Shown here: positions 21,029-28,736 of the stretch, piece by piece | How the letters are laid out: each line of letters begins with the position of its first letter | Numbering within the stretch: position 1 is the first letter of the stretch | Assembly (NCBI GenBank): GCA_016218495.1 | Contig: JACRDU010000123.1 | Location: forward strand, 1-56,860 | DNA: 56,860 bases | Source: Elusimicrobiota bacterium | GTDB taxonomy: Bacteria > Elusimicrobiota > Elusimicrobia > UBA1565 | Direction: 5' to 3' | Translations under genes and position numbers: made by a program | Notes under the pieces: generated by a model | Databases searched by the model: none | Seen by the model: the letters and a program-made list of their open reading frames with translations, nothing else | Told to the model about the DNA's origin: nothing

Positions 21029-23218
21029 CTAAGCCGGCAATAAGGGAGCGTAGCGCACAAGGAGCTTGCGCGCAACACCGTTGTCGAAATGGACCGTGAC
21101 CCGCAGGCTCTCGCCCGAGCCGCTCGTCTCCACGACCCGCCCCTTGCCGAACTCGGGGTGGCGGACCCGCATCCCGTTCTTGACCCGCGTCAGGGGCACC
21201 GGGGCGTCGGGGGAGATCGGGCCGTAGCCGCCGGGAGAGGCCTTCGGGACCGACGCCTGGGCCTCTTCGGGGGCGAACGGGGCGAAGGCCCGGGCCCCGG
21301 TGACGAGCTTGGCCTCCAGGATGAAGCGCGACGGCAGGTTCGCCGAGGCGCGGCCGAAGAGCCGGCGCGTGGCGGCATGGGTGAGGACGAGCCGCTTCTT
21401 GGCCCTGGTCATCGCCACATAGCAGAGCCGGCGCTCCTCTTCGAGCTCCTCCGGCGAGAAGTTGCCCGCGGCGATGGGGAAGAGGCCCTCCTCCAGGCCG
21501 GTGACGAAGACGGCCGGGAACTCCAGGCCCTTGGCCAGGTGGACGGTCATCAAAGTGACGGCGGGCGCGGCCGCGTCGTAGGAGTCGGCGCCGCTCTGCA
21601 GCGCCACCTCCTCGAGGAAGGCCTCCAGGCGCGCGGGCGCCTCGGGCGTGCCCGACTGGGAGAATTCGGCCAGGGCGTTGAGGAGCTCCTGGAGGTTGCC
21701 CAGGCGGCTGGCGGCCTCCAGGTCGGTGTCGAGCTGGCCCTCGAGCCAGACCCAGTAGCCGGTGCGCTTCAAGAGCGAGTTCATCCCGTCGTGCGGCGCC
21801 ATCGCGTGGAGGTCGCGCTCGAGCAGGGTGAGCACGTGGTCGAGCTCGGCCAGGCCGCGCCGGGCCGCCGGCCCCAGACCTTCCACCATCCCCTGCTTGG
21901 CGACGGCCTCGCGCAGGGTCAGCTCGTTGGCGAGCGCATATGCCTTGAGGTGGTCCTCGGCGGTCTTGCCGACGCCCCGGGCCGGGGTGTTGAGCACGCG
22001 ATCGAGGGAGACCGAATCCGAGGGATTGAGAGCGGCTCGGGCGTAGGCCAGGACGTCCTTGACCTCCTTGCGCTCGTAGAAGCGCACCGAGCCGACCACC
22101 CGGTACGGGATGGAGGCCAAAGACAGGGACTCTTCGAACTGCCGGCTCTGCGCGTTGGTCCGGTAGAAGACGGCCATGTCCTTGAAGGAGGTCCCCGCCT
22201 CGGCCAGCTCGACGATGCGGCGCACGACCCAGCGGGCCTCGGCGCGCTCGTCGGGGGCCTCCTCCACGACGATGGCCTCGCCTGCGGGGTTCTCGGTCCA
22301 GAGCTCCTTGGCCTGGCGCTTGCGGTTGTTCGCTATGACCGAGGAGGCGGCCGAGAGGATCTGCGGCGTGGAGCGGTAGTTCTGCTCGAGCTTGACCACC
22401 TTGGCGTCCTTGAAGTCGGTCTCGAACTCGAGGATGTTGCGGATGTTGGCCCCGCGGAAGGCGTAGATGGACTGGTCCGCGTCGCCCACCACGCAGAGGT
22501 TGCGGTGCTGGGCGGCCAGCGTCTTGGTCAGCACGTACTGGGCGTGGTTGGTGTCCTGGTACTCGTCGACGAGGACGTGCTCGAAGAGCTTCTGGTAGCG
22601 GACGCGCAGGGGCTCGTCGTTCTTCATCAGCTCGCAGACCTTGAGCAGCAGGTCCCCGAAGTCGACGCCGCCGGCCGCCTGGAGCTTCTTCTGGTAGCGC
22701 TCGTAGACCTTCGCCACGTTCTGGCGGAAGGGGTCGCCCTGGGCCATCGCGTAGATGGCGTAGGACTGGAAGTCGAGGAGGTCGTCCTTGGCGCGCGAGA
22801 TGACCGAGACGTAGAGCCCCGCCTTGTTGCGCTCGTCGGCCAGCCCGCACTCCGCCAGCGATTCGGCGACGACCCGCTTCGAGTCGGCGGAGTCGAAGAC
22901 CGTGAAGCGCGGCGGGAGCTTGGCCGCCTCCGCGTGGCGCCGCAGGAGCTTGGCGGAGAAGGCGTGGAAGGTGTTGACCCAGACCTGCGCCCCCGCCCCC
23001 GCGACGAGCGCGTCGACGCGGTGGCGCATCTCCTGGGCGGCCTTGTTCGTGAAGGTGACGGCCAGGATGCGCGAGGGGTCGACCCCCTCCTTTATCAGGG
23101 AAGCGACCCGGTGGACGATGACCCGGGTCTTGCCGGTGCCGGCGCCGGCCAGGATGAGCAAGGGCCCGCCGCGATAGGCGACGGCCTCGGACTGGGGGGG
23201 GTTGAGCTCGGAGGACAC
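21029..23218 (-). CDS. UvrD/PcrA-family ATP-dependent DNA helicase
   Basis: 729 aa, superfamily 1A 3'-5' helicase for DNA repair and replication restart. Q motif LNPPQSEAV, Walker A AGAGTGKT, motif Ia TFTNKAAQEM, Walker B LVDEYQDTN, motif III VVGDADQSIYAFRGA, motif IV EQNYRST, motif V TVHLAKGLEFPAVF, motif VI VAMTRAKKRL. The tail VRHPEFGKGRVVETSG is the Tudor-like C-terminal domain of PcrA/UvrD that binds RNA polymerase. PcrA versus UvrD cannot be separated by eye. Confidence 0.95.
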   Translation of the reverse strand: MSSELNPPQSEAVAYRGGPLLILAGAGTGKTRVIVHRVASLIKEGVDPSRILAVTFTNKAAQEMRHRVDALVAGAGAQVWVNTFHAFSAKLLRRHAEAAKLPPRFTVFDSADSKRVVAESLAECGLADERNKAGLYVSVISRAKDDLLDFQSYAIYAMAQGDPFRQNVAKVYERYQKKLQAAGGVDFGDLLLKVCELMKNDEPLRVRYQKLFEHVLVDEYQDTNHAQYVLTKTLAAQHRNLCVVGDADQSIYAFRGANIRNILEFETDFKDAKVVKLEQNYRSTPQILSAASSVIANNRKRQAKELWTENPAGEAIVVEEAPDERAEARWVVRRIVELAEAGTSFKDMAVFYRTNAQSRQFEESLSLASIPYRVVGSVRFYERKEVKDVLAYARAALNPSDSVSLDRVLNTPARGVGKTAEDHLKAYALANELTLREAVAKQGMVEGLGPAARRGLAELDHVLTLLERDLHAMAPHDGMNSLLKRTGYWVWLEGQLDTDLEAASRLGNLQELLNALAEFSQSGTPEAPARLEAFLEEVALQSGADSYDAAAPAVTLMTVHLAKGLEFPAVFVTGLEEGLFPIAAGNFSPEELEEERRLCYVAMTRAKKRLVLTHAATRRLFGRASANLPSRFILEAKLVTGARAFAPFAPEEAQASVPKASPGGYGPISPDAPVPLTRVKNGMRVRHPEFGKGRVVETSGSGESLRVTVHFDNGVARKLLVRYAPLLPA

Positions 23219-23224
23219 GCCCCG

Positions 23225-24802
23225 CTATTTTACCAAACGGCCGCGGGTCTCCGACGGGGAACTGGAGAGGAAGAGGAACTTCACCTTGAAGCCGTAGCGC
23301 TTCGACAGCTCGGCCTCGCGCGCCGTGAGGTAGGGCGCCAGCGCCGCGTTCTGGCCGACGTCGAACGAGAAGACGACCTCGTCGATGGCGTGCCCGATGC
23401 CGGCCTCCAGGCGCGCGCGGTGCTTCTGGTAGACCTCGAGCTTGCGCACGACCTTCTCGTTGAGGGCCTCTTCGGGCGGGATGGGCACCCGCGCGGACTT
23501 GGCCTCGACCATCGTCACGCGCCCGGTGGCGGGGTCCTGCACGACGGTGTCGAGCTCGGTCACATACATCCCGTCGGCGTCGAAGAAGTCCCGCCCGCTC
23601 TGCAGGACCGTCCAGCCCTTCTCGAGGTAGTATTCCACGGTCTTGAGCTCGAGGAGCATCCCGACGTAGCGGGAATAGACCACGCCCTCGATGATCTTGC
23701 CCAGGCCTTCCGTCCGTCCGTAGCGCTTGATGAGGCCGTTGAGCGCGGCGCGGGTCTGCGCGGCCCCTTGGGGGACGGCGGCGATCTCGTCGAGGTAGGC
23801 GAAGCGGATGCGGCCCTTCGTGGCCTTGGAGACCTCGCGCTCGCGCGTCTTGAGGGCGTCCTTGATCTCCTTGTAGCCGCGGGCGTCGAACACCAGCACG
23901 ACCTCGTCGAGGCGGCCGAAGGCCTTTTCGGCCTTGCCGCGGGCCTTGAAGATGTCCAGAGCCTGGTCGATGTAGCCGTTGACGCGCCGCGTCCCCTCCG
24001 CTATCTCGGAGCGCGGGTTCTTCGCGGGATGGAAATAGACCCGGTGCGTGTTCACCGCGATCTGGCGCCCCTTGTCGCGCAGGATGCCGTCGACCCACAG
24101 CAGGGTCCCGTCGAGGTGCGTGTTGTGGTCGTCGACCCGACGGCTCTTCGCCACGGCCTCCACCCCGGCCAGCTTGGCCCAGGCGTCGGCATAGCTGTCG
24201 TCCATCACGTCCAGCGATTCCGACAGGTCGAGGCGGCCCTTGTACTTCTCGACGATGCGCCGGACTTCCTTATAGTAGGCCGGAGGGCGGCCGAAGATCT
24301 CGATGCCCTCGTCGTTGACCGTGCGCGCCTCGGCGACGGCGTTGGCCCCCGGAGCGACGCCGGAGAACAGGCGGTCCAGCTCCAGGCGCGCGGCGGGCGA
24401 AGCCTTGGCTCCGCCGGCGTCGGCGACGGCCTTGACGCGCTCGGCGAAGGCCGCCGCCAGCGGACGGGCGTCCTTGTCCGCGGCGGCCGCCGCCGCAGCG
24501 GCCTCGACGGCAGCGCCGGCGCTGGCCTGCGCGGTGGGGACGGCCTTGGCCGCCCCGGCCGCGGCGACGGCGACGGTCGGGATCGAAGGCAGCGGCAAGG
24601 CCAAAGAAGGGGTCAGGGAGGCGGTGATCCCCGGCACGACCAGGCCGGGCGCCAGGAGGTTCGGCGAGAGGCTGGGGGCGGACAGTCCGGCCCCCGGCAT
24701 GCCCCAGGGAGCGGTCCGAATCGGGACGGGGGCGCTGCGGAACTGGGCGGCAACGGGATGGGCGAGAAGCAACGACACGACGGCCGCCGCGATGGGTCGC
24801 AT
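23225..24802 (-). CDS. Secreted protein with putative PD-(D/E)XK nuclease-like domain
   Basis: 525 aa, no confident family. Signal peptide at 1-19 ending AHPVAAQF, then about 100 residues rich in Ala, Pro, Leu and Ser. The middle is a helical region with conserved-looking segments (DVMDDSYADAWAKLAGV, DDHNTHLDGTLLWVDGIL). Near residue 395 the pattern ELKTVEYYLEKGWTVL, then TELDTVVQDP, then VTMVEAKSARV matches the layout of PD-(D/E)XK nucleases (E, D, ExK). The catalytic call is an inference from that pattern. 6 bases after its stop the helicase gene begins, so they may share a transcript. Confidence 0.5.
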   Translation of the reverse strand: MRPIAAAVVSLLLAHPVAAQFRSAPVPIRTAPWGMPGAGLSAPSLSPNLLAPGLVVPGITASLTPSLALPLPSIPTVAVAAAGAAKAVPTAQASAGAAVEAAAAAAAADKDARPLAAAFAERVKAVADAGGAKASPAARLELDRLFSGVAPGANAVAEARTVNDEGIEIFGRPPAYYKEVRRIVEKYKGRLDLSESLDVMDDSYADAWAKLAGVEAVAKSRRVDDHNTHLDGTLLWVDGILRDKGRQIAVNTHRVYFHPAKNPRSEIAEGTRRVNGYIDQALDIFKARGKAEKAFGRLDEVVLVFDARGYKEIKDALKTREREVSKATKGRIRFAYLDEIAAVPQGAAQTRAALNGLIKRYGRTEGLGKIIEGVVYSRYVGMLLELKTVEYYLEKGWTVLQSGRDFFDADGMYVTELDTVVQDPATGRVTMVEAKSARVPIPPEEALNEKVVRKLEVYQKHRARLEAGIGHAIDEVVFSFDVGQNAALAPYLTAREAELSKRYGFKVKFLFLSSSPSETRGRLVK

Positions 24803-27170: not shown

Positions 27171-27209
27171 CAGGCCGGGCCTGCGGACGCATCCTTGCGT
27201 TCGACGTCC

Positions 27210-28736
27210 ATGGGCCCGAAGATTCTCCTCCTCTGCGCCGGCTTGGCTTGCCTCGCCGCACGGAGCGGCGCGGCCGGCTTCGAGCATGACTTCATCGAGG
27301 TCGAGGAAGACGGGGACCGCCGGTTCTGCCTCAAGGACTGGGAATTCAAGCCCATCCTCGGCCCCGACGGCCGCCTGCTGGCCTGCCGTAAGAGCCCTCC
27401 CCGCATCCTGACCCGCGCTCCCTCCGGGAAATACCGTTTCGTCGAGCGCTGCGCGTTCGGCCAAGAAGAGAAGACCCTCCATTCCCCCCTGCCCGGAGAC
27501 AAGACCTGCCTGCCCGACGGGGAGGAGCCCAGGCTTTGGTCGCGCTTCGGTTCGATGGAGCCGGTAGAGGAATGTGAAGAGGGATTTTCTCCCGTCGTGA
27601 CGAACCGACCGGGCATGGGAGACAAGGCCTGCGTGGAGGGCGGGGAGGAACCTCCGCTGCTGCGCTGCCCCCAAGACAGCTACCCCATCGTCGTCAACCA
27701 GCCGCGGCCTGGGAAAGCCCGCTGCGAGAAGGTCGCAGGCGACGCGCATATCGAAAGCGACGGGACACCGCCGCAAGCAGGCGCTGGACCGATGAAGACG
27801 GCACAGAAACCAGCACCGCCCAAGCCTCCTGCCCCCAAACAGCCTCCAGCCAAGGCGCCGGGGGATGAGTCTGCGGGAGGGAACGGTGGTGGCGGCGGCG
27901 GTGGTGGCGGTGGCGGCGGCGGTGGCGGCGGCGGTGGCGGCGGTGGTGGCGGCGGTGGTGGCGGCGGCGGTGGCGGCGGTGGTGGCGGCGGCGGCGGAGA
28001 TTCCGGGGGCATGGGCCTGGCCGGCAGCATAGGCCGCTTCGCCGGCCAATACCAGCCCTCGAACGCCGGGAACTTCAACCCCGACGGGCGGACCCCTGTT
28101 CGCAGCGCACCCGCTGCCCCCGTCATCGCCTCGGCGGCCGGCGTCCCGTCCCAGGACATGCCGGGTCATGCCCGGCCCTACGACCCCTCCCGGACCGCGG
28201 CGCCCCGCTCGCAGCACCCCCGTCCCCTCGCAAGGCCTTCCGCCGGCTTCTCACCCGAGCCCCCTCCCCCGCAGGCTGGACCCGCCGCGAAGGACGGAGC
28301 AGAGCCACCGCCTCCCGGCTCGGCCTCCGGAGGCGGGGCGTTCGACGATCCCGCACCGGCCTTCCGGAACGCCCCTAAAGCACGCGGCGGCGCCGCGGCT
28401 GCCGCCCCGGGGGCATCGGCCGCCCCGCCCGCGGCTGCCGCAGGCTATCGCGGCCCGGATGGATTCGCGGAGACGGCCTCCGCCTCCCGCCCGGAGGCTT
28501 CCAGCGAGACCCCAGCCGCTCCGGTCACGAACAGATATCCGCCTGCCGGCGAACTCGTCGGGGGGGGCCTTGCGGCCGCGGACGCCGGGAAGGACTCCGC
28601 ACGGGACTACCGCCCCCTGCTCTTGCGGCTGGCGGCTCTGCTGGCCCTCATCTTCCTGATGTTCGCTACGCCCCTTCGCAGGCTGTTCGGCTTCAAGCAC
28701 GATTCCGACAATCCGTCCTCAGGAGCACCCCGATGA
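27210..28736 (+). CDS. Cys-repeat, polyglycine, C-terminally anchored membrane protein
   Basis: 508 aa, function unknown. Signal peptide MGPKILLLCAGLACLAARSGAAG. Residues about 75-185 contain three imperfect repeats of Cys-x(14-18)-Cys-x-DGEEP type (CAFGQEEK..., CEEGFSPVVTNRPG..., CPQDSYPIVVNQP...), a possible disulfide-bonded module. A run of 38 glycines and about 230 residues rich in Pro and Ala follow. Near residue 480 there is one membrane span (LLLRLAALLALIFLMF) and a basic tail, so most of the protein is outside. The ATG at 27210 is preferred over the TTG five codons upstream. The stop overlaps the next ATG. Confidence 0.65.
   Translation: MGPKILLLCAGLACLAARSGAAGFEHDFIEVEEDGDRRFCLKDWEFKPILGPDGRLLACRKSPPRILTRAPSGKYRFVERCAFGQEEKTLHSPLPGDKTCLPDGEEPRLWSRFGSMEPVEECEEGFSPVVTNRPGMGDKACVEGGEEPPLLRCPQDSYPIVVNQPRPGKARCEKVAGDAHIESDGTPPQAGAGPMKTAQKPAPPKPPAPKQPPAKAPGDESAGGNGGGGGGGGGGGGGGGGGGGGGGGGGGGGGGGGGGGGGGDSGGMGLAGSIGRFAGQYQPSNAGNFNPDGRTPVRSAPAAPVIASAAGVPSQDMPGHARPYDPSRTAAPRSQHPRPLARPSAGFSPEPPPPQAGPAAKDGAEPPPPGSASGGGAFDDPAPAFRNAPKARGGAAAAAPGASAAPPAAAAGYRGPDGFAETASASRPEASSETPAAPVTNRYPPAGELVGGGLAAADAGKDSARDYRPLLLRLAALLALIFLMFATPLRRLFGFKHDSDNPSSGAPR
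27885..27998 (+). repeat. GGN microsatellite encoding 38 consecutive glycines
   Basis: 114 bases made of GGT and GGC codons with a final GGA, in frame within the membrane protein gene at 27210-28736. The GGT/GGC order is irregular, giving 6- and 9-base sub-repeats. Slippage here in multiples of three would change linker length without breaking the frame. Confidence 0.9.

Follow-up and report, generated by a model that had tools for sequence, protein, structure and literature searches.

The gene examined here occupies positions 23225 to 24802, reverse strand, of a 56,860-nucleotide stretch of contig JACRDU010000123.1 (hereafter the window, meaning that whole stretch of DNA) from the Elusimicrobiota bacterium assembly GCA_016218495.1. 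Modelling and sequence comparison support the conclusion that the mature part of its 525-residue product is made up of a tandem pair of PD-(D/E)XK folds that arose by duplication. This is a new exported-type arrangement within the superfamily, without a confident Pfam or NCBIfam family, in which one fold is canonical and the other altered yet strongly conserved. Ahead of the folds stands a leader which, judged from sequence, is of a type common to unrelated proteins of the same genome: a signal peptide, a loose linker and a short motif that I call the FDG box. On balance, I take the protein to be probably an exported, metal-dependent DNase belonging to a set of leader-tagged enzymes.

The canonical C-terminal copy

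The open reading frame begins with an ATG at 24802 and its stop codon ends at 23225 (all features of this gene given below are likewise on the reverse strand). The frame has the signature of a coding sequence, with a guanine-plus-cytosine fraction of 0.92 at third codon positions against 0.48 at second positions, and it has orthologues: 25 aligned relatives are 36-60% identical to the nuclease. The host genome (G000) comprises 4.15 Mb in 165 contigs.

I used an AlphaFold2 model of the whole mature part (residues 162-525, four sequences; model residue n is protein residue n+161), which has a predicted local distance difference test score (pLDDT) of 84.8 and a predicted template modelling score (pTM) of 0.81. 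In this model the C-terminal copy (C copy; residues 367-517, positions 23252 to 23704) has the alpha-beta-beta-beta-alpha-beta core of the PD-(D/E)XK superfamily: in model numbering, a helix at 206-233, strands at 237-246, 252-261 and 268-275, a helix at 282-299 and a strand at 314-320. A structure search matched model residues 218-355 to PD-(D/E)XK enzymes including Card1, XisH and NucS/EndoMS. Card1 scored Z 8.2 (root-mean-square deviation, rmsd, 2.8 over 113 aligned residues), the XisH-type structure 2okf Z 7.8 (3.3 over 118), AF1548 Z 7.8 (3.5 over 113) and a Pyrococcus repair endonuclease Z 6.7 (3.0 over 106).

The superfamily signature is also present, the acidic D418 being followed on the next strand by E433-x-K435. 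Invariant in all 26 aligned relatives, including the two giant frames described below, are R378, G381, E385, G403, Y413, E416, D418, E433, K435, R438, K454, Y458 and D481. A first-pass annotation of this DNA had proposed a PD-(D/E)XK core from the order of three motifs, EYYLEKGWTVL, TELD and VEAKS, and the core is borne out by the model, the structure matches, weak family matches and the invariant E, D and ExK residues. The motifs do occur in that order, and E416, D418, E433 and K435 (in the stretch ELD ... VEAK, 23498 to 23557) are the invariant residues just listed, but EYYLEKGWTVL holds no invariant glutamate: relatives read, for example, LEHYLAKG, VEHLVDQG or HKKRIKMG there. The invariant helix glutamate is instead E385 of GMLLELKTVEYY (codon 23648 to 23650), five residues before that motif. 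The annotation had named a different fold, or loss of the E/D/ExK residues in homologues, as outcomes that would speak against it; the model has the proposed fold and the aligned homologues keep the residues. Thus, model and alignment support the C copy as a canonical PD-(D/E)XK fold with the full E, D and ExK set. A basic C-terminal tail (at least three K, R or H among the last ten residues) follows in 20 of the 26 rows of alignment A4.

Sequence searches of Pfam, NCBIfam, PADLOC and the PDB gave no confident family for the nuclease. Among the 26 relatives, Pfam gave weak matches to NERD (E 0.0062, three members), Tox-REase-9 (E 0.069, two members), UPF0102 and REase-ARP (one member each), the best E-values of the four families running from 0.0062 to 0.13. 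None of these four is a confident match, the window protein matched nothing up to E 10, and most of the 15 families matched by the relatives are unrelated. PADLOC returned no family for four proteins, giving no sign of an anti-phage defence nuclease. NCBIfam matches to TolA and L21 were set aside, because they fall mostly on the Ala-rich linker and seem to reflect composition alone.

A second, altered copy

The same protein contains a further fold that the first-pass annotation had missed, the N-terminal copy (N copy; residues 194-343, positions 23774 to 24223). In the whole model, residues 38-183 match restriction-fold proteins, with CdiA-CT at Z 6.5 (rmsd 3.2, 124 aligned), and the same search gave AspBHI at Z 6.4 (3.6, 128 aligned, extending to model residue 200) and PaqCI at Z 6.3 (3.4, 127 aligned, model residues 42-208). 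When the N half (model 28-182) was aligned to the C half (206-356) with hhalign, the two agreed over 98 columns with a probability of 95.6, an E-value of 1.3e-8 and a score of 55.2, against a best score of 19.1 among 40 column-permuted controls. Modelled alone from 27 sequences, the N copy reached a pLDDT of 93.6 and a pTM of 0.88, and from residue 39 of that model it runs helix, three strands, helix, short helix, strand, helix, strand. Its best structure matches were to the XisH-type proteins 2okf (Z 9.2, rmsd 3.5, 117 aligned) and 2inb (Z 8.7, 3.7, 117), followed by AspBHI (Z 8.3, 3.8, 132), AF1548 (Z 8.3, 3.7, 128) and CdiA-CT (Z 7.9, 3.2, 125).

By profile alignment, model and structure search alike, the N copy has the PD-(D/E)XK core fold. 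It lacks the canonical ExK, with H, Y, N, Q or A at the position of the glutamate and no aligned lysine. D238 is retained opposite D418 of the C copy, and the invariant residues that the N copy has for itself across 26 relatives include D238, T252, F257, H258, S265, E269, G270, R272 and R273. Without ExK but with an invariant set of its own, it appears non-canonical yet under strong constraint. Rearranged active sites are known within the superfamily, and the N copy may either only bind DNA or hold such a rearranged site.

The leader and its FDG box

The first 160 residues lie outside the nuclease fold. By reading, residues 1-20 (24743 to 24802) resemble a signal peptide, MRPIAAAVVSLLLAHPVAAQ, and residues 21-144 (24371 to 24742) form a linker rich in Ala, Pro, Ser and Leu, ending at the box L145-F146-S147-G148 (24359 to 24370). 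The signal peptide of the first-pass annotation stands as a signal-peptide-like start, recognised by a crude rule in 24 of 31 orthologous loci, but export is only a prediction. Among the seven loci failing the rule are some whose leader frame is cut or broken, and the rule probably overlooked at least L018 and L036. The annotation had added that such enzymes are normally cytoplasmic, which was too strong: exported toxins with the restriction-endonuclease fold, Tox-REase-1 to -10, have been described (PMC3482391).

The leader is kept in distant orthologues of the nuclease. The box, as the pattern [LIMVFA][FY][DSNE]G, occurs in 28 of the 31 loci, 9-31 residues ahead of the domain, where composition shuffles (which, here and below, ignore sequence kinship) expect 0.83; the other three loci read IFLG, IYAG and FFFG. 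It is retained in a genus whose linker is not Ala/Pro-rich (L031, L032, L034, L037 and L038).

A search of the genome with the whole protein showed that its N-terminal part weakly matches other proteins (E 1.3e-7 to 9.5). These have a signal-peptide-like start, a stretch rich in Ala, Pro, Ser and Leu and often a short box ahead of the folded part, and some of the similarity is composition. When the genome was searched with a profile of ten leaders (A3), 23 places matched at E 10, and for 17 of these E was 0.002 or better. This list is partly circular, since A3 includes the box and seven of the 17 places are or include its own rows from this genome. As a control, a leader profile cut before the box (A6) found 25 places at E 1; among the 18 that are not profile rows, ten have the box further on, against 1.99 expected, although one of the ten (L227, AFNG at 246) is probably a chance match inside a folded part.

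The box is not general among exported-type proteins. In a small sample of the window and 14 random stretches (276 kb, 192 genes), 43 genes are signal-peptide-like by the crude rule and five of these match the pattern; three of the five look unrelated, and the leader arrangement is seen only in the two leader proteins of this window. In other genomes, 14 stretches surrounding the nuclease gene hold 46 signal-peptide-like genes, of which nine match the pattern, seven of them being the nuclease itself. Searches of an open-licence library showed no paper on this leader or the FDG box in Elusimicrobiota.

Other leader-type proteins

The second leader protein of the window is an Endonuclease I (EndA-like) protein (53736 to 55184, forward strand; Pfam Endonuclease_1, E 1.1e-40) with an LFDG box at 54282 to 54293, forward strand. 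Its leader is a row of both A3 and A6, and alone it matched the N-terminal part of the nuclease weakly (E 0.54). Among its orthologues, the box is present in 22 of 26 usable leaders (28 given, two at an edge), against 1.02 expected, mostly 25-67 residues ahead of the matched domain. A link between the two nucleases of the window comes from genome G229, where a 693-residue frame (L210, G229:C11:50000-58000) has a signal-peptide-like start, Endonuclease I and then an N copy, and ends before the catalytic copy. This N copy has diverged, and the fusion may be decaying.

Pfam names on leader-type proteins are alpha-amylase, polyphosphate kinase 2 (PPK2), SecA, Endonuclease I, 4-alpha-glucanotransferase, peptidase M50, adenylate kinase, PLD-like and MFS, the MFS protein being an E 2.7 match to A3. 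Of 20 such proteins scanned, 11 had no match at E 0.001, and eight came from frames truncated where the stretch examined ends. In PPK2 leaders, a near-strict form of the pattern occurs in three of 22 (23 loci given, one at an edge), against 0.97 expected. A relaxed form, [FY][DSNET]G or [FY][FY]D[RQ], occurs in 20 of 21 against 1.47 expected, but it is a post hoc pattern, chosen after most leaders were seen to read RFDG or FYDR and applied to a stretch that differed slightly; L200, whose frame looked shifted, was excluded. Besides the leader-type PPK2, G000 has a leaderless tandem PPK2-type gene, whose halves lie in different open frames, one with an internal stop, and which may be frameshifted in the assembly.

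SecA_DEAD is present in all eight genomes of the family, five of which have two copies. In G000 the leaderless SecA is on C134 (frame of 960 residues, an ordinary length) and the leader-bearing one on C33 (frame of 1,110 residues, with MFFDR replacing the box). G005 has a leader-type second SecA with VFTG. By reading, G003 and G004 have a metallopeptidase-like segment (HExxH) between the leader and the second SecA, the G003 frame starting outside the stretch examined, and no leader is visible in the stretch examined for the second SecA of G006. The loci of leader-bearing SecA paralogues are L146 (G000:C33), L145, L148 and L149. An adenylate kinase (L221/L099, G000:C33:116210-116476) has a signal-peptide-like leader and no FDG box. 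Several transporter-like proteins (L223, L228, L104, L106 and L051:2-1096; MFS by Pfam for L104 only, the others by reading) have long signal-peptide-like leaders, and their topology after cleavage would be odd.

Distribution and giant open reading frames

With a four-row profile at E 0.01, I searched 340 genomes of the phylum and found nuclease matches in 39: 37 of the 56 genomes of the order and two of the 284 others. Within the order, matches occur in five of eight genomes of family f1, two of four of f2 (one a fragment at E 0.0056) and 30 of 44 of f3. A single match was found in 35 of the 39; the remaining four have two matches each, which by profile positions are pieces of one copy.

Both relatives outside the order lie inside giant open frames, of 10,958 residues in G324 and of 7,856 residues in G175, the latter truncated by the end of its contig. 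The G324 frame has Pfam matches to ADH_N and A_deaminase, and that of G175 to glucosamine-6-phosphate isomerase, RNB, iPGM_N/Metalloenzyme and A_deaminase, with three more below the curated cut-off. The giant frames thus carry domains of usually cytoplasmic enzymes: glucosamine-6-phosphate isomerase, RNB and iPGM in G175, and adenosine deaminase in both. Giant proteins have been reported for Elusimicrobiota and Omnitrophota (PMC12057145, PMC11573180 and PMC10066038). I do not argue that the leader set represents a giant protein taken apart, because phmmer at E 1 found no match between the other leader-type proteins and the two giant frames.

A scan of genome contigs with the single sequence found no relative. 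One based on alignment A4, with two short peptide patterns, yielded 30 loci, every one of which is titled Elusimicrobia, Elusimicrobiota or unnamed bacterium, and viral contigs scanned with two peptide patterns gave none.

Weighing the explanations

In the explanation that I favour, the chain would leave the cytoplasm through a Sec-type signal peptide, and the next 120-140 residues would be a loose leader ending in the FDG box. This leader is probably a common signal and not part of the nuclease, because unrelated enzymes encoded in the genome have the same type of leader; most likely it serves sorting, docking or processing. The C copy would cut DNA with a divalent metal, and the N copy would bind or orient DNA, or pair with the C copy within the same chain, an arrangement like that of other nuclease/pseudo-nuclease pairs. 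Acting alongside the leader-bearing Endonuclease I, the nuclease might degrade DNA of foreign or environmental origin outside the cytoplasm, either to take up nutrients or during contact with other cells.

Several observations weigh against this explanation. The structural matches are not strong: Foldseek on the whole model gave a best E-value of 7.1e-4 with low TM-scores, Z 8 was reached by one of 999 chains for the whole model and by four of 999 for the N copy, values that the tool's own note treats as middling, and unrelated proteins such as acetyl-CoA carboxylase appear among the matches at Z up to 6.8. With middling Z scores and a weak Foldseek result, the case for the fold rests on topology, invariant residues and the duplication. 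Pattern-based scans found no relative outside the phylum from which knowledge could be transferred. The box itself is inconstant. Four of the 16 non-nuclease places matched by A3 at E 0.002 or better lack it (L085, L092, L095 and L099), even when VFEG and FFDR are counted; the G229 fusion lacks it by reading; and no LFDG-type box adjoins the domain in the giant frames, where G324 has none and G175 a single VFDG some 250 residues upstream. In a secretome survey, Elusimicrobiota metagenome-assembled genomes from activated sludge are reported to be among those with the fewest predicted extracellular proteins (PMC11495043). Finally, SecA, PPK2 and adenylate kinase need ATP, which is at odds with a plain extracellular role for every member of the set. 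These ATP-using enzymes are the worst-fitting part: either the leader means something else there, or they act where ATP is available.

The strongest competitor concerns the box and not the nuclease. It is quite possible, if short of probable, that the FDG box is a mere proprotein cleavage site or hinge, in a leader that keeps enzymes inactive or soluble during export and carries no address. Its place shortly before the folded part in the nuclease and before the domain in Endonuclease I agrees with this, but it leaves unexplained why only a subset of exported-type proteins bears the box (five of 43 match in the 276 kb sampled, two with the arrangement). At the other extreme, the leader could be an undescribed N-terminal sorting signal of this Elusimicrobiota order, sending a second, parallel set of enzymes to one extracytoplasmic place. 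The proposed cargo would be this nuclease, Endonuclease I, PPK2, the second SecA, sugar-polymer enzymes and the phospholipase-D-like and metallopeptidase proteins, and perhaps the adenylate kinase, whose leader is of this type but lacks the box. Since SecA and PPK2 also occur leaderless in the genome and use ATP or polyphosphate, such a place would have to supply these, as might the interior of another cell or an unknown compartment. I regard this version as rather unlikely.

Whether the nuclease is instead an effector, passed by means of its leader into cells that are competitors, prey or hosts, is doubtful, though a little less so than the sorting signal. Restriction-fold nucleases are common toxin domains (PMC3482391), the N copy resembles CdiA-CT toxins at Z 7.9, and the relatives in giant open frames belong to a class of proteins for which a link to predation has been proposed (PMC12057145 and PMC10066038). 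Other observations count against an effector. No neighbouring gene (open frames of at least 90 residues) is common to the 15 loci compared, which leaves an operon or a toxin-immunity arrangement unsupported; the C-terminal part is not exchanged, the nuclease being kept at 36-60% identity; and the genomes have one match each, apart from those with pieces of a single copy. A nuclease fold kept for binding only, inactive and part of surface structures such as giant proteins, seems improbable. The EndA fusion that retains an N copy alone, without ExK, and the nuclease domain among other enzymes in the giant frames would suit it, but all canonical residues are invariant in the 26 aligned relatives, both giants included.

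Least credible of all is a cytoplasmic DNA-repair nuclease with a misread signal peptide, partnering the UvrD/PcrA-type helicase encoded next to it. The helicase gene (identified by reading; 21029 to 23218, reverse strand) begins six bases past the end of the nuclease gene, which directly precedes such a gene both here and in G002. Among the other 14 loci, however, the helicase frame was matched only in G002, whereas orthologues across the order retain an exported-type leader and its box (in 28 of 31 loci), and Endonuclease I and alpha-amylase carry the same leader type.

Relation to known systems

The C copy shares its core fold with the CRISPR-associated PD-(D/E)XK nucleases Card1, Can2 and Cdn1 (Card1 at the Z of 8.2 given above, Can2 and Cdn1 lower). 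Can1 likewise combines a nuclease with a nuclease-like domain in a single chain, and the Foldseek matches include 6sce, which I take to be Can1. Unlike these four proteins, the present nuclease has no CARF-type sensor domain that I could recognise and has an exported-type leader instead. XisH, the fdxN element excision controlling factor (2okf, 2inb), is the best match of the N copy and the second of the whole model (at the C copy), but XisH-type proteins are single small domains, and no sequence match to them was found. The Tox-REase and CdiA-CT toxins are exported DNases with the restriction-endonuclease fold, which the present protein resembles in the weak Tox-REase-9 match (two of 26 members) and in having CdiA-CT among its structural matches. 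It differs from them in having, among open frames of at least 90 residues, no neighbour common to the 15 loci as a possible immunity gene; no toxin-delivery repeats were noticed, none having been searched for.

Endonuclease I (EndA, PF04231) is an exported type of DNase, the EndA-like protein of the window shares the leader type, and in one genome an Endonuclease I is fused to an N copy, but Endonuclease I belongs to a different Pfam family and its fold is unrelated to PD-(D/E)XK. As for the giant proteins of Elusimicrobiota and Omnitrophota, the two nuclease homologues within them sit among other enzyme domains, whereas the window encodes a separate product of 525 residues.

That unrelated enzymes keep a short motif in leaders which otherwise diverge predicts a receptor, a protease or a secretion route common to them, in a phylum of which few members have been cultured. 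The FDG motif already allows candidate exported cargo to be listed for these genomes. A second SecA, a PPK2 and an adenylate kinase with this type of leader also raise the question: What role would ATP-using enzymes have outside the cytoplasm?

Further features of the window and its relatives

Neighbours of the nuclease gene are partly shared within a genus and between genera of one family (G000 with G002; g8 with g18; g9, g13 and g16 mutually; g16 with g19). Between families, sharing is limited to a few frames several kilobases away, one frame each of G212 and G230 being shared with G003 of the other family. Elsewhere in the window, an open frame at 27195 to 28736 on the forward strand contains a run of several dozen glycines.
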